Source: a virus
DNA: 33,765 bases
Virus record (IMG/VR): IMGVR_UViG_3300034103_000204
Coordinates: 1-33,765 of that record
Reading direction: 5' to 3' (one strand)
Made by a program: the position numbers and the translations under genes. Numbering within the stretch: position 1 is the first letter of the stretch; each line of letters starts with the position of its first letter. Under the pieces are notes generated by a model. The model worked only from the letters and a program-made list of their open reading frames with translations. It searched no databases and had not been told where the DNA came from. Below are positions 6,962 through 32,905 of the stretch, one piece after another.

Positions 6962-7505
6962 GCATTACCTTGCCGTTGCCATAGCTGCGGTACTGGTCTA
7001 CCGTTCCCCTAGTATTAGGATCAAACATTGAAGCAGCTTCGATGGCGCGCTTGGCCGATAGGTCGTGGTTCTTATTCCAGTCAGGTAGATACTGCTTGTC
7101 AGCTAGTGACCCAATGGCTAGGTCTGCGCCTGATCCAATAGCCCAGTAAGGCGCGGCAGTTAGAACGCTCAAGTCCTCACCGATTAGGAAAGACTTGCCA
7201 TGCGTTACAAGTAATGCTTCAGCATCCATCTCTTTATCTTTAATCGTGTCATCTATTAGTGGCACAACCTTAGTAACAATCCACTTGAGCCAATCGCCAG
7301 ACTTAACTACTTCAACAGGTGGCTTAGGGTATTCAATCGCGTACTGCAACTGATCGCATAACCTTGCGCTACCGGCAACACCAATAAGCCATGTATCTTG
7401 TTGAATGATCTTAGGCATGTCAGGATGAATTAGGTCTGATGTAATCCCTTGATCTGCTGTTAGTGTGCAGAAGTTGTTGCCTGTTGTTGTAACAATCGTG
7501 GTCAC
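6951..7505 (-). CDS. HslV/proteasome-like Ntn hydrolase
   Basis: A 184-residue protein that matches the proteasome/HslV N-terminal-nucleophile pattern. It begins M-TTIV, so removal of Met exposes Thr1. TADQ places an Asp at mature position 17 and Lys at mature position 31. IGVAGSA (41-47) and AIGSG (122-126) correspond to the two glycine loops of HslV. These are the expected catalytic elements for a threonine peptidase. The start is GTG 7505 in a GTGA overlap with the methyltransferase. No HslU-like ATPase or proteasome regulator is encoded here. It might self-assemble, join the host proteasome, or have another Ntn amidohydrolase role. Family assignment is fairly strong; the substrate is unknown. 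Confidence 0.75.
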   Translation of the reverse strand: MTTIVTTTGNNFCTLTADQGITSDLIHPDMPKIIQQDTWLIGVAGSARLCDQLQYAIEYPKPPVEVVKSGDWLKWIVTKVVPLIDDTIKDKEMDAEALLVTHGKSFLIGEDLSVLTAAPYWAIGSGADLAIGSLADKQYLPDWNKNHDLSAKRAIEAASMFDPNTRGTVDQYRSYGNGKVMRGV

Positions 7506-8755
7506 AGTAGCATTCCTTCTACTTGGTCTTGAGCGTGCTTAATTCTAGCCGTTGCAATCTGTAAATAGTCTGCGCTTTGATCTATGCCTATGAAGTTAAA
7601 GCTTTCAAGCACTGCTGCCTTACCTGTTGAACCTGAACCCATGAACGGGTCTAGCACTGTTCCTTCAGGTGGCGTAACTAATCGCACAAGGTAACGCATG
7701 AGTTCTGTTGGCTTAACTGTTGGGTGATGGTTTGATTGTTTCGCAACTCCCTTTTCTGTGAATGTACCCATGCCAGTTTCACTTCTATCATCAGGGCGTT
7801 TCTCTACAAAGCCATCTAGTCCTTCGTTGCGGTCCTTCTTACTAGCCTTAGCGCAGTAAAAGAATCGTGCAGCTGAACCTGAATCGCCTAGATGTGAACC
7901 TGTTATTTGCCCTGAATGATGTTGTCTATATTCAGTTTTAGCATCGTTTATGTGTGGTTTTATTGACCCTGTTTTTGTATCAGGAAACAACTCAACTACT
8001 TCATCTGAACCATCATGTATAAAGTTTGCAGGCCAGCGACCAGCATTTAACTTTCCAATATCAACTGTGCCGTTTATTCCTTCACCATAAATTCCGTTTG
8101 ATGTTCCTTCAGGCTTTGATGCTTTAAATGTGCCGCCATCATTCCCAACCCTTGACCCGTCAATATTCAACGCACCAGTGCCATGAATGATTACGTTTGT
8201 TGCAACTGTTCCTATCAACGGCTTACGAGCTAGGACTATCGGCTCATGCGCCGGCTTTAGTGCTGTTCCCCATCCTGCCCATTGCTTTGCTTTGTCTGTT
8301 ATAGGAATGTTAGAAAGTTGTTTAGATTCATAATCTGATGGTCTGTATCCCTGCTCTTGCTGTCCAACTGAAATTCCATAAGCAAAGCCAGTTTTAATAA
8401 CTTCGCGCTCTGCTCCAGCCTGCTTATCTATTGCCTTACTTACATCCATTGACTTAGGGAAGCCCGAACCATAGACCCACATAATCTGATCGCGTATTTC
8501 AAAGCCTGCATCTTCAATGGCAACTGCCATACGGTGATAGGTGCGCGATCCACTGAACGCAAGCAAGTGACCGCCGGGCTTTAGAACTCGCAGTGCTTCA
8601 TCCCACATCTTTACGCTGTATGCAATGCCCGTTGAATCCCACGACTTACCCATAAAACCTAACTCATACGGTGGATCAGTAACTATGGAGTCCACACTGT
8701 TAGCTGGTAGTTGTCGCATTTGTTCTATGCAATCGCCGTTACGCAAGTCAATCAT
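7502..8755 (-). CDS. Site-specific DNA methyltransferase (DPPY type)
   Basis: A 417-residue SAM-dependent DNA amino-methyltransferase. The catalytic motif DPPY is at 27-30 and the SAM-binding motif DPFMGSGST is at 369-377 near the C-terminus. This permuted (beta-class) order resembles phage and CcrM-like enzymes; DPPY favours N6-adenine methylation. A long central region (~100-340) is the variable target-recognition part. No restriction partner is nearby, so it is an orphan enzyme that could protect phage DNA or regulate replication or packaging. It starts in an ATGA overlap with the upstream gene. Confidence 0.9.
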   Translation of the reverse strand: MIDLRNGDCIEQMRQLPANSVDSIVTDPPYELGFMGKSWDSTGIAYSVKMWDEALRVLKPGGHLLAFSGSRTYHRMAVAIEDAGFEIRDQIMWVYGSGFPKSMDVSKAIDKQAGAEREVIKTGFAYGISVGQQEQGYRPSDYESKQLSNIPITDKAKQWAGWGTALKPAHEPIVLARKPLIGTVATNVIIHGTGALNIDGSRVGNDGGTFKASKPEGTSNGIYGEGINGTVDIGKLNAGRWPANFIHDGSDEVVELFPDTKTGSIKPHINDAKTEYRQHHSGQITGSHLGDSGSAARFFYCAKASKKDRNEGLDGFVEKRPDDRSETGMGTFTEKGVAKQSNHHPTVKPTELMRYLVRLVTPPEGTVLDPFMGSGSTGKAAVLESFNFIGIDQSADYLQIATARIKHAQDQVEGMLL

Positions 8756-10360: not shown

Positions 10361-10692
10361 TATCTTGCTCCTGTTTCTCTTAATCGCTCACGCGATGCTC
10401 TTTTGTTTATTGCATCCCTTGTATCGGCTGCAAACTCGTGTTTGTATTCTTCATCTATGCGTACTGGTGTTATGTGAAAGAACCTGCGTAGTGCTACACG
10501 TTCCTTATCTGTTGTTCCTGCCCACCAGCCATCAACCTTGACCTTTAACGAGTAGTCAAGGCAGTCATCAAAGATTGGGCAACGCATACAAGTTTTCTTT
10601 AGTAACGCTTCCATCTTTTCGCTTATGTTATTTGTTGGAAAGAATAACTCTGGGTCTAATCCAATACAAGCTGCGCCGTCTGTGTTAAACAT
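10360..10692 (-). CDS. WhiB-like iron-sulfur regulator (divergent)
   Basis: A 110-residue protein with the four WhiB cysteines: Cys9 in AACIGLDPELFFP, Cys35, Cys38 and Cys44 in TCMRCPIFDDC. The usual G-I/V-W-G-G turn is altered to GWWAG, followed by TTDKER. The C-terminus is basic (RASRERLRETGAR), as expected for DNA contact. WhiB proteins bind a 4Fe-4S cluster and act with sigma factor to control transcription; phage versions can mimic or antagonise host WhiB proteins. It starts 8 bases inside the RusA gene end. Confidence 0.8.
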   Translation of the reverse strand: MFNTDGAACIGLDPELFFPTNNISEKMEALLKKTCMRCPIFDDCLDYSLKVKVDGWWAGTTDKERVALRRFFHITPVRIDEEYKHEFAADTRDAINKRASRERLRETGAR

Positions 10693-12531: not shown

Positions 12532-12653
12532 TAGTTACCACCTAGAGCAAACCAAGTGCCAACGAATAGAACCCAGCCTGCACCAATCACAGCTAGTGCA
12601 GTCAGTAGTTCACCTATAAATCTTGCGCGTGGTGTCCAGTTCCAATTAGTCAT
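12531..12653 (-). CDS. Small single-pass membrane protein (40 aa)
   Basis: The frame starts at ATG 12653 inside the end of the previous gene and finishes in a TAATG overlap with the next. It has a polar Trp/Arg-rich start (MTNWNWTPRARF) and one hydrophobic helix (~17-37, LTALAVIGAGWVLFVGTWFA). This is the third tiny membrane protein placed in this way in the early region. The function is unknown. Confidence 0.65.
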   Translation of the reverse strand: MTNWNWTPRARFIGELLTALAVIGAGWVLFVGTWFALGGN

Positions 12654-12870
12654 TTGGGATACCTACAACTTTGCAAAATTCTGCATCTGTCATCTTTAGC
12701 TGCATTGCCTTCATGATCCAGCCGCGTACAGTGATTAGTGCATCCCACTCAACAAACAATTCTTCTGTGCGTGGCTTTGTCTTTAGTGCATCTATTTGAG
12801 TTTCGCTCTGATTCCAAACCAAGATTAGTTCAGCTGCTGTTTTGTTTTCTAGTGCTAGTGTTGCGTTCAT
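12646..12870 (-). CDS. Hypothetical early protein behind hairpin leader copy 3
   Basis: A 74-residue, mainly helical protein (TAAELILVWNQSETQIDALK...). I do not recognise it. It is the first gene after one of the three promoter-leader elements and has AAAGGA about 10 bases before ATG 12870, so it probably opens an early operon that continues through the Rad52-like, rusA and ssb genes. Confidence 0.65.
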   Translation of the reverse strand: MNATLALENKTAAELILVWNQSETQIDALKTKPRTEELFVEWDALITVRGWIMKAMQLKMTDAEFCKVVGIPND

Positions 12871-12966
12871 TGCTTTGTTTCCTTTGTCCTAGAACCTTGC
12901 GGTTCGCTTATGTGTTATACATTACCCTAGCTGGCAGACAGTTTGTACCATTTCAGCAATTTATTT
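12871..12966 (-). promoter_or_regulatory. Promoter-leader element, copy 3 (GNRA hairpin)
   Basis: On the minus strand, TAATGTATAAC and ACATAAGC are followed by a hairpin GAACC-GCAA-GGTTC (12892-12905), then TAGGACA (12885-12891), AAAGGAAAC and the ATG. The order and spacing match copies 1 and 2. Three of the five stem pairs differ from those copies yet still pair. The -10 could be TAATGT or TATAAC; no good -35 is visible, and the 26-bp upstream block of the other copies is absent. Confidence 0.65.
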
Positions 12967-13003: not shown

Positions 13004-13342
13004 CTAATTGGTGTACGCAAAGACCCTTAGAAATCGCCGTTTATCTAGTTTGTCCTTTGGAACTTTGCCAGACTTAGACAGTTTGTAACGCTCGATTGGA
13101 TCCAATCCACCCCACATGCCCCATTTCTCATCTAGGCCAATCTCTAGGCAGAAACCAGACACCGGGCATTCTTCGCACATCCGCTTGGCTATGGCGTACA
13201 GGTGCGGTTCTTCATTCTCAGGGAAGCAAGTGTCAGGGTGAGCATCATTGCAAGCTGCTTTGTGCATCCACGATTCAGGCGCGGAACAGATTAGGCACAT
13301 TCCAGAATCTAGCCACGCTTCGTGATCGCAGTCTTTGAGCAT
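13004..13342 (-). CDS. WhiB-family transcriptional regulator
   Basis: A 112-residue WhiB-like protein. Cluster cysteines are Cys31 (AACNDAHPDTCFPE), Cys56, Cys59 and Cys65 (CEECPVSGFC), and the turn WGMWGGLDPIER (74-85) is intact. The C-terminal region is basic (KVPKDKLDKRRFLR), as expected for DNA contact. An extra N-terminal CDH...CLIC group may bind zinc. WhiB proteins use a 4Fe-4S cluster and bind sigma factor region 4; a phage copy may redirect host transcription. This is the clearest host marker in the genome. Confidence 0.92.
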   Translation of the reverse strand: MLKDCDHEAWLDSGMCLICSAPESWMHKAACNDAHPDTCFPENEEPHLYAIAKRMCEECPVSGFCLEIGLDEKWGMWGGLDPIERYKLSKSGKVPKDKLDKRRFLRVFAYTN

Positions 13343-13537: not shown

Positions 13538-13871
13538 TTATCAGGCCAAAGCCTTTGAGTTGCTGCCTGATTGCTTCTGGCATTCCTTGTGACTTAGGAC
13601 TTGACCCAATGGCTCTTACGTTGTCAATCTCGTTCTGCCTGTTCCTGTGACTGCTCCACATTGCGTTTAGGTGCGCCGGCATAACTGAAGCAGTTGATGT
13701 TGCGTAGTGCTTGCCTACTGCATCACGCGCAAATTCAAACTCCATAGTTGCGCTTAGTGCTAATGACCAGCCTTCAACCTTTGCTCTAAATCCTGCTTCA
13801 TCAGCTGCACTAAGTCGCGCATCTATCGCCATTGCAACTGCTAAGACTTTGCCTATCTCTGCTTTGTTCAT
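13530..13871 (-). CDS. Replication-region protein of unknown function
   Basis: A 113-residue helical protein with the pattern AMAIDARLSAADEAGFRAKVEGWSLAL ... AVGKHYATSTASVMPAHLNA. I associate this layout (AxxxDxR, later HYxxS...MPAHL) with small proteins beside replication initiators in actinophages, where a helicase-loader role is sometimes suspected. No ATPase motif is present. It overlaps the PAPS-reductase-like gene by 4 bases. Confidence 0.6.
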   Translation of the reverse strand: MNKAEIGKVLAVAMAIDARLSAADEAGFRAKVEGWSLALSATMEFEFARDAVGKHYATSTASVMPAHLNAMWSSHRNRQNEIDNVRAIGSSPKSQGMPEAIRQQLKGFGLIND

Positions 13872-14674
13872 TCCTGTTCCTCATAATCTGTAAAGCAACC
13901 GCAGCCACCAATGTCTAGATCATCAAATAGTTCTGGTTGCTGTTCTTTGCGTTGTCTTATGACTTTTAGTGGCAATCGCTTCACTTCACCGTTTACAGTT
14001 TCTTTCAGTATTGAAACATCACCTAATTGCTCTTGCAATAAAGATTCTTGATGTTCCCATTCTGCAAATCGTTCAGGCATTACATCCAACAGTTTCTTGA
14101 ATTGCGCTTGGCCTGCTCTTACGCATCCACCACCACAATTATTATGAGCAAAGCCCATTGCATAAAGTCGCGGTGGTTCTAGTTGTTCTGACAAAGCCCA
14201 TTGAATCAAATCTTGTTTATCTAGATACGGTGGTTCAGTCAATGGTGCTTCAGCTTTAAAGGGTAAATAGTTTCTTACAATAGCCGGGAGCCTATGAATC
14301 TCTGACCAGTCAATTCCAACATAAACAACTGTGTTATCTGGATCGCAGTTTTCATCTAACCATTCTCTAGCTGGTTTCTGTTTTAGAACGTGTGAGCAAT
14401 TAGCAAGTCTTGAATTGCCTAGAAACTTCTTATCACTAAACACTTCCCAAATGTTTCTGCCATCCATAACAGTCACAACTGGTGCGCCTAAGTTATCTGC
14501 TGCATCTTTAATAAACCTATAGGTATCTTCATCTTCGCCTATGTGAGGATTGTCTGTATTGCCCTTAACGTCACTAAACAAAAGTGTTACGTCATCTGCG
14601 CCATACTTTGCAACAACACGTTTAGCCGTTGCCCAACTACCAATGCCACCTGAGAACATCACAACGTGCTTCAT
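13868..14674 (-). CDS. PAPS-reductase-like PP-loop ATP pyrophosphatase family protein
   Basis: A 268-residue adenine-nucleotide alpha-hydrolase. The PP-loop is FSGGIGSWATAK (7-18), followed by LLFSDVKGNT and a Cys at 93. A C-terminal cysteine group (NNCGGGCVRAGQ, Cys180 and Cys184; GGCGC, Cys258 and Cys260) could hold an Fe-S cluster or zinc. The family includes PAPS reductase, DndC-type DNA sulfur enzymes and tRNA-modifying enzymes. With two DNA methyltransferases nearby, a nucleotide- or DNA-modification role is plausible but unproven, and no other sulfur-pathway gene is present. It overlaps both neighbours by 4 bases. Confidence 0.78.
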   Translation of the reverse strand: MKHVVMFSGGIGSWATAKRVVAKYGADDVTLLFSDVKGNTDNPHIGEDEDTYRFIKDAADNLGAPVVTVMDGRNIWEVFSDKKFLGNSRLANCSHVLKQKPAREWLDENCDPDNTVVYVGIDWSEIHRLPAIVRNYLPFKAEAPLTEPPYLDKQDLIQWALSEQLEPPRLYAMGFAHNNCGGGCVRAGQAQFKKLLDVMPERFAEWEHQESLLQEQLGDVSILKETVNGEVKRLPLKVIRQRKEQQPELFDDLDIGGCGCFTDYEEQE

Positions 14675-15752: not shown

Positions 15753-15907
15753 TGCTTTGCTCCTGTCATTAGTTCTATTGCTGATCTGATTACTTGACTT
15801 ACGTTTGCGTTGTGCTGGTGCGCCCACTGTCTAACTGCAAGCATCTGCTCACTGTTAAGGCGTAGGGCAATCATGTTGTCTTTGTTTTCTTTCTGTTCGT
15901 CAGCCAT
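15749..15907 (-). CDS. Ribbon-helix-helix DNA-binding protein (52 aa)
   Basis: The frame starts at ATG 15907 with AAGGAG 7 bases upstream, overlaps the methyltransferase stop by 8 bases and ends in an ATGA overlap with the next gene. Residues 12-48 match the CopG/Arc ribbon-helix-helix pattern: a short beta strand MIALRL, helix NSEQMLAVRQWAHQHN, then the NVSQVIRSAIELM helix with the conserved VSxxIRxAI element. Such proteins dimerise and bind operators, so it may regulate early promoters. It is short but very well supported. Confidence 0.82.
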   Translation of the reverse strand: MADEQKENKDNMIALRLNSEQMLAVRQWAHQHNANVSQVIRSAIELMTGAKQ

Positions 15908-16853
15908 TTGCCAACTCCTTTTCTATTTCGTTTAATAGCGGTGCGTCATTGTAAATACGATCAACCGCTAATTCTGCATAGTCTGGATTAAGTTCAGTGC
16001 CTACAAAGTTTCTGTTGTGTCTTAGTGCCACCATCCCAACAGTTCCAGAACCTGTAAATGGATCAAGCACCGTATCGCCAGCTGCTGAACCTGCAAGTAT
16101 GCAAGGCTCAACAAGCGCTTCAGGCATTACTGCAAAGTGCGCGCCTTTGTAGGGCTTGGTTGCAACTGTCCAAACGTCACGTTTGTTACGTTTTCCATCT
16201 AGTGCTGAAGTTCCTAAATTTTGAGTGTCTTTTCCACCATTTTGAACGTGCAACGCATAAGGGTTAGGCTTGGATTCTTTGTGTTCCGTAGTTGCATCTT
16301 CCTTTATTGCTACATGATCATAAAAATACTGACGTGATTTAGTCAAAAGAAAAACGTATTCGTGTGACTTTGTGCATCTATCGGTAACTGATTCAGGCAT
16401 TGGATTAGGCTTAGCCCAGATAATGTCTTGTCTTAGATACCAGCCGTCAGCCTGTAATGCGAATGCTAAACGCCAAGGAATACCAACAAGGTCTTTTGGC
16501 TTGAGTCCGTCAGGGATAGTGCGCTTTCTAGTGTTATCGTTCACACCTGCCTTCTGTTTAACTTTTCCACTAGTCCCGTTCGTATTGCCTTCTTTGGTGG
16601 ATGCGTAGCTATCACCAATGTTTAACCAAAGTGTGCCGTCATCTTTTAGCACGCGCCGCACTTGCCTAAACACTTCAACCATTTGATCAACGTATTGCTG
16701 CGGTGTTTCTTCTAACCCGATCTGATCGCCTTCACCGTAGTCACGCAAGCCCCAGTATGGCGGTGACGTTATGCAGGTTTGAACTGACTGCTCAGGTAGT
16801 AGCTGCAATGCAGTTCTAACATCACCAATAATGATCTTTGCTTTACTCATCAT
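15900..16853 (-). CDS. Site-specific DNA methyltransferase (TSPPY type, probably N4-cytosine)
   Basis: A 317-residue DNA amino-methyltransferase. The catalytic motif SPPY (30-33, in TSPPYWGLRDYG) comes first and the SAM-binding loop DPFTGSGT (264-271) near the end, the beta-class order. An S at the first motif position is more common in N4-cytosine enzymes, while the other enzyme of this phage has DPPY. TKSHEYVFLLTKS (161-173) is the usual motif between them. No restriction endonuclease partner is visible, so it is probably for self-protection or regulation. A second ATG lies one codon in. Confidence 0.9.
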   Translation of the reverse strand: MMSKAKIIIGDVRTALQLLPEQSVQTCITSPPYWGLRDYGEGDQIGLEETPQQYVDQMVEVFRQVRRVLKDDGTLWLNIGDSYASTKEGNTNGTSGKVKQKAGVNDNTRKRTIPDGLKPKDLVGIPWRLAFALQADGWYLRQDIIWAKPNPMPESVTDRCTKSHEYVFLLTKSRQYFYDHVAIKEDATTEHKESKPNPYALHVQNGGKDTQNLGTSALDGKRNKRDVWTVATKPYKGAHFAVMPEALVEPCILAGSAAGDTVLDPFTGSGTVGMVALRHNRNFVGTELNPDYAELAVDRIYNDAPLLNEIEKELANG

Positions 16854-17100: not shown

Positions 17101-17358
17101 TTATTCACCTAATCCTGTTGCTGTCCAAGTGTCACCGTCAATTTCTAAAATGATTAAATTCTTTTCGGCTAAACTTTTCAGCGAATTGAAGATGCTTAAT
17201 CTGCTGCCTTCCTCGAAGCGTGGATGGCTTGCGTGTGTGTCTGAACTTTTTACAACTGCACCTATTGCAATTTTTTCGTAAAGAAAAATTTCCTGCCACG
17301 TTAATCCAATGCCGATCATTCTCTGCTTGTGAATAGGGTTTACGTTTTCACTAAACAT
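17101..17358 (-). CDS. Hypothetical protein behind hairpin leader copy 2
   Basis: An 85-residue protein from ATG 17358 (MFSENVNPIHK). This start is chosen because the conserved leader ends just before it; the frame is open back to 17430, but that part overlaps the promoter and hairpin. The second half (SRLSIFNSLKSLAEKNLIILEIDGDTWTATGLG) resembles a winged-helix layout. The function is unknown. It would be the first gene of an operon running toward the replication genes. Confidence 0.65.
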   Translation of the reverse strand: MFSENVNPIHKQRMIGIGLTWQEIFLYEKIAIGAVVKSSDTHASHPRFEEGSRLSIFNSLKSLAEKNLIILEIDGDTWTATGLGE

Positions 17359-17481
17359 TTGCTTTCTCTTTTCTGTCCTAGCAGGTTGCCCTGCGCCTAT
17401 GTAATGATCATTGCACCTTTTGTTATACAAGTCAAGCCCATTTGCAAAATAGCCAATTTACCGCGTGTCTATTGGGTTTTT
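17359..17481 (-). promoter_or_regulatory. Promoter-leader element, copy 2 (GNRA hairpin plus upstream block)
   Basis: On the minus strand, -35 TTGACT (17435-17430), a 17-base spacer, -10 AATGAT (17412-17407), then ACATAGGC, a hairpin GCAGG-GCAA-CCTGC (17381-17394), TAGGACA (17374-17380) and the ATG at 17358. Upstream, a 26-base block (17456-17481) is identical to 28815-28840, and GTCAAGCCCATTT (17431-17443) is also shared. This is the same arrangement as copy 1. Confidence 0.75.
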
Positions 17482-28443: not shown

Positions 28444-28480
28444 CAAACAGCCCCACCGTCAGGCAGGGCTGTTCGTTTTG
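28444..28480 (-). terminator. Rho-independent terminator after the moron gene
   Basis: On the minus strand, GAACAGCCC (arm 28475-28467) pairs with GGGCTGTTT (28454-28446), with further CC-GG pairing inside and a small TGAC-centred loop, followed by GCTTTTG. It lies just after the stop at 28486, so it should end the short transcript that starts at promoter copy 1. Confidence 0.75.
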
Positions 28481-28485
28481 TTTAA

Positions 28486-28722
28486 CTATGCAGCTGATTT
28501 GATTGCATTGAATTCTGCTTTGTCAATTTCTGTTACTTCAACAACTGCTATTGGCTGAAAGTAACCACGATTTATTGGCTTGCCTGCTGCATTAGAACTT
28601 TTGTGCCATGTGCAAGCGATTGAATCATCCATACCAAGTAAGAAAGTAGCAACTACATAATCTGCATCTGATGAGCGTACTTCGATCTGACCTTTGTATT
28701 CTGCTTTGAAAAACTTCTTCAT
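28486..28722 (-). CDS. Single-gene moron of unknown function
   Basis: A 78-residue protein, MKKFFKAEYKGQIEVRSSDADYVVATF onward, with alternating beta-type segments and an acidic/Ala C-terminus. I do not recognise it. It has its own promoter-leader (copy 1), a ribosome site AAAGGA and its own terminator, all inside the late structural region. That is the definition of a moron: a gene expressed independently of the surrounding operon. The shared early-type promoter suggests early or constitutive expression, perhaps for host takeover or superinfection control. Confidence 0.7.
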   Translation of the reverse strand: MKKFFKAEYKGQIEVRSSDADYVVATFLLGMDDSIACTWHKSSNAAGKPINRGYFQPIAVVEVTEIDKAEFNAIKSAA

Positions 28723-28840
28723 TTTGTTTCCTTTGTCCTAGCAGGTTTCCCTGCGCTTATGTATTAAGTATTGCTTGTTTGTATAACAATGTCAAGCCCA
28801 TTTAGGAAACCCGTATTTACCGCGTGTCTATTGGGTTTTT
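28723..28840 (-). promoter_or_regulatory. Promoter-leader element, copy 1 (GNRA hairpin plus upstream block)
   Basis: On the minus strand, -35 TTGACA (28795-28790), 17-base spacer, -10 AATACT (28772-28767), then ACATAAGC at the likely transcript start, a hairpin GCAGG-GAAA-CCTGC (28741-28754), TAGGACA (28734-28740), AAAGGAAAC and the ATG at 28722. The 26-base block 28815-28840, identical to 17456-17481, overlaps the last codons of the epimerase gene. The spacing from -35 to leader is the same (27 bases) in copies 1 and 2. Confidence 0.78.
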
Positions 28841-31714: not shown

Positions 31715-32905
31715 CTAGAGCCGTTCTAGGGCTTTGGCTTCTAAAACCGTAAGTACGGGTTTCCAATGTTCTTCAAAGACCGTATCTGCGTTATACGCTT
31801 TGGCAAACTCCTGAGCCTTGTCTGATCTACCGCGCCCACGCTGATAAGCCTGCTCAAGCGAATCCACTATTGCAGGAACGCTAGGCATGTGGAACCAACT
31901 TGCTTGCGGTGCATCCCAAAGCGGTTGCCCGTCAATTAACCACCCGTCACCTAGTAGTTCAGTTGAAGCTGCAAAGTCGCTGATAATGACAGGCGTTCCA
32001 CAGGCTTGCGCTTCCACAGTTGGAATACCAAAGCCTTCACCGTAGCTAGTCGCAAGTAGAACATCCATAGCCGTATAGATCGTGGCTAATGTTTGCTGGT
32101 CAATGCCGGTTCGATAAACGTAAGGATCAACAAACTTGAACTTATCTTCTGGAACTCCACAGGATTGAAGCAACTGCAATAACTTGATGCCACCTAGTGC
32201 GCCCATCTGATCTGTGTGCAGATACAAAACAACGTCATCGTGCTTTTGCGCGAACATAGAGAACGCCAGAATGTTCTCACCAAATGCTTTGCGGTTAGGG
32301 CTTACGCCTTTGTTAGCCGCGTTCATACCAACAACAAACTTATCTTCTTCAATGCCTATGTAATCTCTGCCAGTAATTCCCTTGTGTCTTTTCATTGGCT
32401 TAAATACTGATTCAATTCCATGTGGCACATAAAGCGATTCAATGCCTGCGTTCTCAATCATTGCCTGCCCGTATTTGCTCATTGCAATAGGAGTTACTGA
32501 ATCATTGCGTAACCACTTTAGAACTTCAGGCGGTACAGGTAAGTGATCAACTGGAACCCAACTTGCAACATTCCAGTCATGCCATCTATCACCCTTGAAT
32601 ACCCATACGTCATAGAGCGTGAATAGAATGTGTCCCTGCTTTGGGTGCTGTGATGTCCAATGGTGCATGTGTGCAGGCACTACGTCATTTGAATAAAGGT
32701 CTGCGCCACGTTGATAAACAGGAATCCCGTTCCAGTCTGTGTTGCTTCCTTCTAATCCGTAGTTGTTAAAGATCGCAACATCGTGACCAATCTCTTTAAG
32801 TCGCTGAGTGACTTGCGCTGTTTGTGTTCCGTAACCAGTAGCAGCCCAAGGCGCGTTAGAGTTCCAGCCGATAGATAGGGGTTTAGTCACAGGTGATCCG
32901 TTCAT
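31715..32905 (-). CDS. Glycosyltransferase family 4
   Basis: A 396-residue GT-B transferase. The N-terminal domain begins SIGWNSNAPWAATGYGTQTA, an acceptor-side pattern of phage and bacterial GT4 enzymes. The C-terminal domain has the E-x7-E motif (Glu290 and Glu298, SYGEGFGIPTVEAQACGTPVI) for the nucleotide sugar. It opens the five-gene cassette, about 100 bases after the capsid stop and beyond a strong terminator, so the cassette needs either read-through or its own promoter. A direct role in virion or host-surface glycosylation is inference. Confidence 0.88.
   Translation of the reverse strand: MNGSPVTKPLSIGWNSNAPWAATGYGTQTAQVTQRLKEIGHDVAIFNNYGLEGSNTDWNGIPVYQRGADLYSNDVVPAHMHHWTSQHPKQGHILFTLYDVWVFKGDRWHDWNVASWVPVDHLPVPPEVLKWLRNDSVTPIAMSKYGQAMIENAGIESLYVPHGIESVFKPMKRHKGITGRDYIGIEEDKFVVGMNAANKGVSPNRKAFGENILAFSMFAQKHDDVVLYLHTDQMGALGGIKLLQLLQSCGVPEDKFKFVDPYVYRTGIDQQTLATIYTAMDVLLATSYGEGFGIPTVEAQACGTPVIISDFAASTELLGDGWLIDGQPLWDAPQASWFHMPSVPAIVDSLEQAYQRGRGRSDKAQEFAKAYNADTVFEEHWKPVLTVLEAKALERL

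Follow-up and report, generated by a model that had tools for sequence, protein, structure and literature searches.

Phage morons consist of a promoter, a small gene and a terminator inserted between structural genes, and the boxB hairpin of phage lambda is a fixed stem with a GNRNA-type pentaloop that is read by the N protein. In cluster K mycobacteriophages, the SAS has the sequence GGGATAGGAGCCC, with at most two deviations, and lies next to the start codon, while the arms of the ESAS are imperfect 17-bp inverted repeats with conserved letters; the authors who described these elements found little support for mRNA hairpins (PMC3203893). Going by titles cited in PMC3997798, a 5' hairpin stabilises the gyrase mRNA in M. 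smegmatis, and other mRNAs are stabilised by 5' stem-loops. Here we compare with these systems a short hairpin leader that recurs in one viral genome and in its relatives, and of which searches of the literature did not find a description.

Three copies of the leader in one viral genome

The window, meaning the whole stretch of DNA that was analysed, is a virus record of 33,765 bases whose identified phage genes lie on the minus strand. The initial annotation had reported three copies of an mRNA leader in it, and the minus strand does contain all of them, at 28762-28734, 17402-17374 and 12913-12885, the end first given for the third (12914) being one base too far. The order that they were said to share also stands, as all three fit ACATARGC-N5-GNRA-N5-TAGGACA with zero mismatches. 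In copy 1, ACATAAGC (28755..28762) would form the unpaired 5' end of the mRNA, with +1 predicted at 28760 (an A) from the spacing of the -10 box, and is followed by the hairpin GCAGG-GAAA-CCTGC (28741..28754; predicted -7.8 kcal/mol, mean pair probability 1.00) and the conserved TAGGACA (28734..28740). Copy 2 is made up of ACATAGGC (17395..17402), with a putative +1 at 17400 (also an A), the hairpin GCAGG-GCAA-CCTGC (17381..17394), recognised by pattern match, covariation and folding, and TAGGACA (17374..17380). In copy 3, a pattern match places ACATAAGC at 12906..12913, ahead of the hairpin GAACC-GCAA-GGTTC (12892..12905; -5.5 kcal/mol, mean pair probability 0.72) and TAGGACA (12885..12891). 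All three heptamers are supported by pattern match and alignment. With GCAGG/CCTGC in copies 1 and 2 and GAACC/GGTTC in copy 3, three of the five pairs differ while pairing is kept, exactly as the annotation had it.

A scan of the window allowing up to three mismatches returned these three copies and no fourth match; at the same tolerance, shuffled windows gave a mean of 0.12 matches, and none of 100 shuffles reached three. Rfam 15 yielded 0 matches in the window at its curated threshold. A GTGA-capped 5-bp stem before a start codon at 10383-10396 was rejected as a fourth copy: it lies within a coding region, and relatives do not retain its arms. Weak model matches at 32364, 19968 and 10631 were also discarded, being without a stem.

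Covariation of the stem in further copies

A search pattern in which the stem arms and one loop base were left free gave 13 further matches in 11 IMG/VR viral contigs, every one of them with perfect 5-bp arms; the one in L004 is a duplicate of window copy 1 as far as the displayed stretch extends. The strict pattern matches once in 257 Gb of genomes from bacteria and archaea, in a Chlamydiae contig, and there the arms are unpaired. A second scan, with a free loop and a gap of 8 to 22, found the real copies again and only at the 14-nt geometry. Its seven matches at other gaps have neither stem nor promoter, and some 190 unrelated operator-to-TAGGACA matches rarely carry a stem, so that a chance origin can be set aside. 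In the sequences collected, 32 of 75 TAGGACA words are directly preceded by a hairpin of at least 4 bp, against 0 to 7% for control words of similar composition, except one word with 1/9.

The covariation set comprises 28 five-bp copies, which reduce to 25 distinct rows. In these, 100% of the stem cells form standard pairs, both-sided changes occur at four of the five pairs, and no pair is lost; the closing G-C pair never varies and is thus uninformative. The covariation score is 0.833, versus 0.209 for shuffled rows and at most 0.173 with slid partners. Because kinship among sequences can inflate such counts, leaders standing before homologous genes were compared with one another, and in nine comparisons (two of which share one window copy) the stem substitutions amount to 15 double and 0 single. 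Nor do any of the additional copies have arms that diverge without compensation. The covariance-model search that had been proposed recovers diverged members of the family, which together with those from direct scans have stems of 4, 6 and 7 bp and loops that read GATA, GTTA, GACA, AAAA or ACCCC. Over the family as a whole, the stem thus ranges from 4 to 7 bp (4, 5, 6 and 7) and the loop is usually GNRA when read on the mRNA strand, with GCAA, GAAA and GCGA in the majority. Since the hairpin persists through changes of stem letters, stem length and loop, it is structure and stability that appear to be selected and not letters, and the rule of the family is a hairpin rather than a sequence. The observation of a three-copy covarying leader is therefore genuine, and the claim that covariation reflects a selected RNA structure at the predicted 5' end of the transcript holds with independent sequences.

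The same data bear on the idea that the repeat acts as DNA, that is, as an inverted repeat downstream of the promoter bound by a dimeric protein. This would agree with its fixed distance from the -10 box and its conserved flanks, but an operator would retain its letters, whereas here both arms change theirs together and the 4-nt GNRA spacer stays strand-asymmetric; we regard this explanation as very improbable.

Predicted promoter and putative operator

Thirty-three copies were studied, 25 of them in class A and 8 in class B (window copy 3 and seven others). In class A, the predicted promoter is of the sigma-70 type: a -35 box reading TTGNNN, TAGACA or TGGACA is separated by 17-18 nt from a -10 box such as TAGAAT, TATGCT, TATTAT or AATGAT, and the spacer holds TGTTATACA, its reverse complement TGTATAACA or a one-base variant. 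Copy 1 has its -35 box TTGACA at 28790..28795 (a 10/12 promoter-like site with a 17-nt spacer) and its -10 box AATACT at 28767..28772, and in copy 2 the promoter alignment places TTGACT at 17430..17435 and AATGAT at 17407..17412. The spaced -35 and -10 boxes claimed for these two copies thus exist in the sequence, as TTGACA-17-AATACT and TTGACT-17-AATGAT, and the predicted start falls on the second A of ACATA. A palindrome, TTGTTATACAA / TTGTATAACAA, lies inside the class A spacer (window 28788-28780 and 17429-17421). Its core in copy 1 is TGTTATACA (28780..28788), a putative operator present in all class A promoters, and copy 2 has the reverse complement TGTATAACA (17421..17429); the palindrome is a probable operator of some regulator.

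On inspection of the alignment by eye, the hairpin lies 12 nt from the -10 box in 23 of the 25 class A copies and 9 nt from it in the other two; a hairpin that begins 9 nt after the -10 box, GCGGA-AAAA-TCCGC, is found at L144 14023 and L155 1628. Automatic promoter scoring picked the 12-nt distance in 16 of the 33 copies and an upstream TATAAC or TATACA in eight others. This alternative -10 box, which would precede the hairpin by about 25-27 nt, has a good score in those eight and was rejected as inconsistent across the set. The sixth base 5' of the hairpin, which is the predicted +1, is an A in 30/33 copies, in leaders beginning with AUARGC as well as with AACAGC. Promoter spacing thus predicts that the mRNA starts about 6 nt upstream of the class A hairpin.

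In the records examined, all recognisable class A-type promoters carry a hairpin, some of a different kind. At L173:10471 (10471-10550), a GTTGG-TTCG-CCAAC stem with a UUCG cap takes the same place behind such a promoter, and at L163:10699 the hairpin is ATAAGC-AAAAG-GCTTAT; both are without TAGGACA.

In class B, the letters upstream differ from those of class A and the promoter is poorly defined. The -10-like TAATGT of copy 3 (12919..12924) is weak and has no consensus -35 box, which makes its assignment uncertain. The stems of this class are nearly all GAACC/GGTTC and so show little covariation of their own. Upstream of the hairpin, class B promoters share GNACAA and TGTCTGCC (about 12935-12960 in the window, minus strand), possibly an activator site adjoining the WhiB-like gene.

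Fold of the leader and access to the ribosome site

From its 5' end, the leader consists of a short unpaired end (AUARGC or AACAGC), the hairpin, UAGGACA, a Shine-Dalgarno site and the ATG. Folding calculations that begin at the predicted start give the hairpin in all leaders, at -5.4 to -10.4 kcal/mol and with a pair probability of 0.72-1.00, while 0.52-0.98 of the ribosome region is unpaired. Hiding the ribosome site is therefore not how the hairpin acts, and the stable fold next to a free ribosome site, both predicted, is what is expected of a 5'-terminal stabilising stem-loop. Of the two roles suggested at the outset, a stabiliser of the 5' end has the better anatomical fit; a sequence-specific binding site fits less well, given that the stem varies in both sequence and length and the loop varies too.

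The distance from the hairpin to the ATG is 17-22 nt. This constancy, which approximates the upstream edge of the 30S footprint, would suit a hairpin acting mainly in translation, either by keeping the leader open or as a standby platform for the 30S subunit. The ribosome site is computed to be more open with the hairpin in 28/33 leaders and equally open in one, by modest amounts. However, the computed gain is small, and a role in translation alone would leave the fixed 12-nt distance from the -10 box unexplained, which makes this account unlikely.

The heptamer requires separate treatment. In the 28 copies TAGGA is invariant and the full TAGGACA nearly so, and in nearly all copies a separate Shine-Dalgarno-like sequence stands 3' of it, the heptamer itself being too far upstream to serve as one. 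Pairing of TAGGACA with 16S rRNA was considered and rejected for E. coli, where the longest perfect complement is 5 nt. These features could mean that a protein or an RNA, of phage or host origin, binds the hairpin together with UAGGACA and controls all slots at once at the post-transcriptional level. Since neither the letters nor the length of the stem is constrained and the loop is equally free to change (AAAA and 5-nt loops occur), such a factor would have to recognise UAGGACA and, in the hairpin, nothing beyond its shape; moreover, no candidate factor was found, and the two variants that share the promoter, at L173:10471 and L163:10699, lack the heptamer. We thus hold a binding site to be possible if rather improbable, and the same grade applies to its corollary, a phage-wide post-transcriptional regulon in which one docking factor would switch all accessory slots and inserted genes would join it.

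In E. coli 16S rRNA (L411, last 60 bases), helix 45 reads GTAGG-GGAA-CCTGC, near to the commonest phage hairpin, GCAGG-GNAA-CCTGC. This resemblance is set aside as probably a coincidence, because other phage stems differ entirely.

Cargo genes and genome slots

The 33 copies precede 23 unrelated families, mostly of small proteins. In the window, the open reading frames downstream of the leaders, all on the minus strand, encode 78 aa behind copy 1 (28486..28722), 85 aa behind copy 2 (17101..17358) and 74 aa behind copy 3 (12646..12870), as cargo of slots 1, 2 and 3, respectively; none of the three proteins has a Pfam or PHROG match. With homologues of window genes as landmarks, the copies can be assigned to four fixed genome slots. 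Slot 1 is between a sugar-gene module and the head-tail connector, slot 2 is after a phosphoesterase gene and ahead of the replication module, and slot 3, where all copies are class B, is between the WhiB-like gene and a single-strand annealing protein. Slot 4 is on the opposite strand, between a gene labelled MCP? and a glycosyltransferase. In one subgroup (L085, L079, L077, L081 and L073), the capsid and glycosyltransferase genes have this second cassette between them, in antisense orientation and with a very strong symmetric terminator at its end (AGAAAGAACCCCG...CGGGGTTCTTTCT).

Homologous cargo recurs in different slots: window 28722-28486 (slot 1) is related to L113 (slot 2), L110 (slot 3) to L112 (slot 2), L105 (slot 2) to L060 (slot 1), and L077, minus strand (slot 4), to L132 (slot 1). 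As slot 3 retains the GAACC stem whatever its cargo, the leader there appears to stay while the cargo changes. Taken together, these comparisons indicate that the hairpin belongs to a predicted promoter cassette, which occupies four fixed slots before interchangeable small genes and had escaped the initial annotation.

The copy 1 unit is closed by an intrinsic terminator on the minus strand (28444..28475; 14 pairs, 8 of them G-C, with -24.5 kcal/mol for a slightly longer stretch). A strong terminator is predicted 224-824 nt after the ATG in 20/25 class A units, and in slot 2 all 10 of 10 copies have another terminator about 120-150 nt upstream of TAGGACA. Most class A units have strong terminators behind their first small gene or genes, the leader lies directly after the promoter, and its 5-bp stem with a GNRA-type loop is reminiscent of lambda boxB. 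All this would be in keeping with a site for processive antitermination in the manner of lambda nut or HK022 put, which RNA polymerase would take up on its departure from the promoter. Yet a read-through signal would defeat a terminator lying 0.2-0.8 kb further on, unless it were regulated. Inspection of the leaders by eye showed no boxA-like element, order and spacing differ from those of known sites, and the specific stem and loop letters that such sites require are not kept. Antitermination is accordingly judged quite unlikely.

Host and relatives

WhiB-like genes are typical of actinobacteria and their phages, and the window carries a gene for a WhiB-like transcription factor at 13004-13342. 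The closest cultured relative of the terminase is that of Pontimonas phage phiPsal1, with 57% identity. This relationship and the WhiB-like regulator point to an aquatic actinobacterium as host, and the hosts of the virus family are probably aquatic actinobacteria. A related terminase is encoded in at least 599 viral contig stretches. phiPsal1, the closest cultured relative, lacks the element, and a BLAST search of the consensus cassette against cultured phages gave chance matches only. The window also holds a phosphoadenosine phosphosulfate reductase-like gene (13868-14674) beside a replication initiation gene, and two DNA methyltransferase genes (7502-8755 and 15900-16853).

A model for the cassette

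The letters of the hairpin are free while its fold is constant, very stable loops are preferred, and its place is by the predicted start of the mRNA, so a protector of the 5' end fits best. We propose a promoter-leader cassette for swappable accessory genes, in which the hairpin stabilises the 5' end of the mRNA and translation is kept independent of the gene that follows, and we give this reading, which is drawn from sequence comparison, a probability of roughly 60%. Transcription would start about 6 nt before the hairpin, which would then shield the 5' end from 5'-end-dependent decay by RNase J and RNase E, both of which are listed in the M. tuberculosis degradosome (PMC3997798). Lying just upstream of the 30S footprint, the hairpin would leave the ribosome site open, and any gene behind the cassette could be expressed alike. 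In the least certain step, UAGGACA may serve an early ribosome contact or a trans-acting factor. Protection alone does not account for the invariant TAGGACA, for which a pure stabiliser has no need, and its position beside the hairpin would allow for a binding partner. The nearly uniform stems and ill-defined promoter of class B also count against the model, as does the lack of the element in phiPsal1.

The leader is a phage RNA element that is conserved, covaries cleanly and has no Rfam family. As its copies stand at four sites of exchange of small genes whose functions are unknown, the motif is of practical use in the search for accessory genes, some of them possibly genes of host takeover, in uncultured aquatic actinophages. 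The cassette suggests a route for the immediate expression of newly acquired genes, by means of a standard promoter, a 5' hairpin and a gene-independent ribosome site. If stabilisation is its role, these phages would offer a natural experiment, with replicates, on 5'-end protection in actinobacteria.

Comparison with known systems

The nearest described elements are SAS and ESAS, by placement and not by structure. They too are short conserved elements just upstream of the start codons of many, often unrelated, small actinobacteriophage genes, with a repeat pair adjoining a fixed 3' sequence. However, the aligned copies have TAGGACA and not GGGATAGGAGCCC, and in place of imperfect 17-bp repeats the arms of the phage leaders are perfect, 4-7 bp long and covarying in their letters, at the predicted start of the transcript. 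The stabilising stem-loops of E. coli ompA and papA, B. subtilis aprE and M. smegmatis gyrase have a hairpin a few nucleotides from the 5' end, as promoter spacing predicts for the class A leaders, and resemble the present leader in leaving the ribosome site free; they are leaders of single genes, whereas in these phages the same promoter and leader, with a conserved heptamer on the 3' side, recur from slot to slot. Lambda nut boxB and HK022 put also place a small hairpin just after a phage promoter, with a GNRA-type loop in boxB, but the leaders here have mostly tetraloops, stem letters replaced at four of five pairs, no conserved loop letters, no boxA that was noticed, a heptamer on the 3' side and a nearby terminator. 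Finally, slots 1 and 4 have the anatomy of morons, with a predicted promoter and terminator of their own and a small gene, variable among relatives, between structural genes; the difference is that one covarying RNA leader is common to all slots, including those in the early modules.
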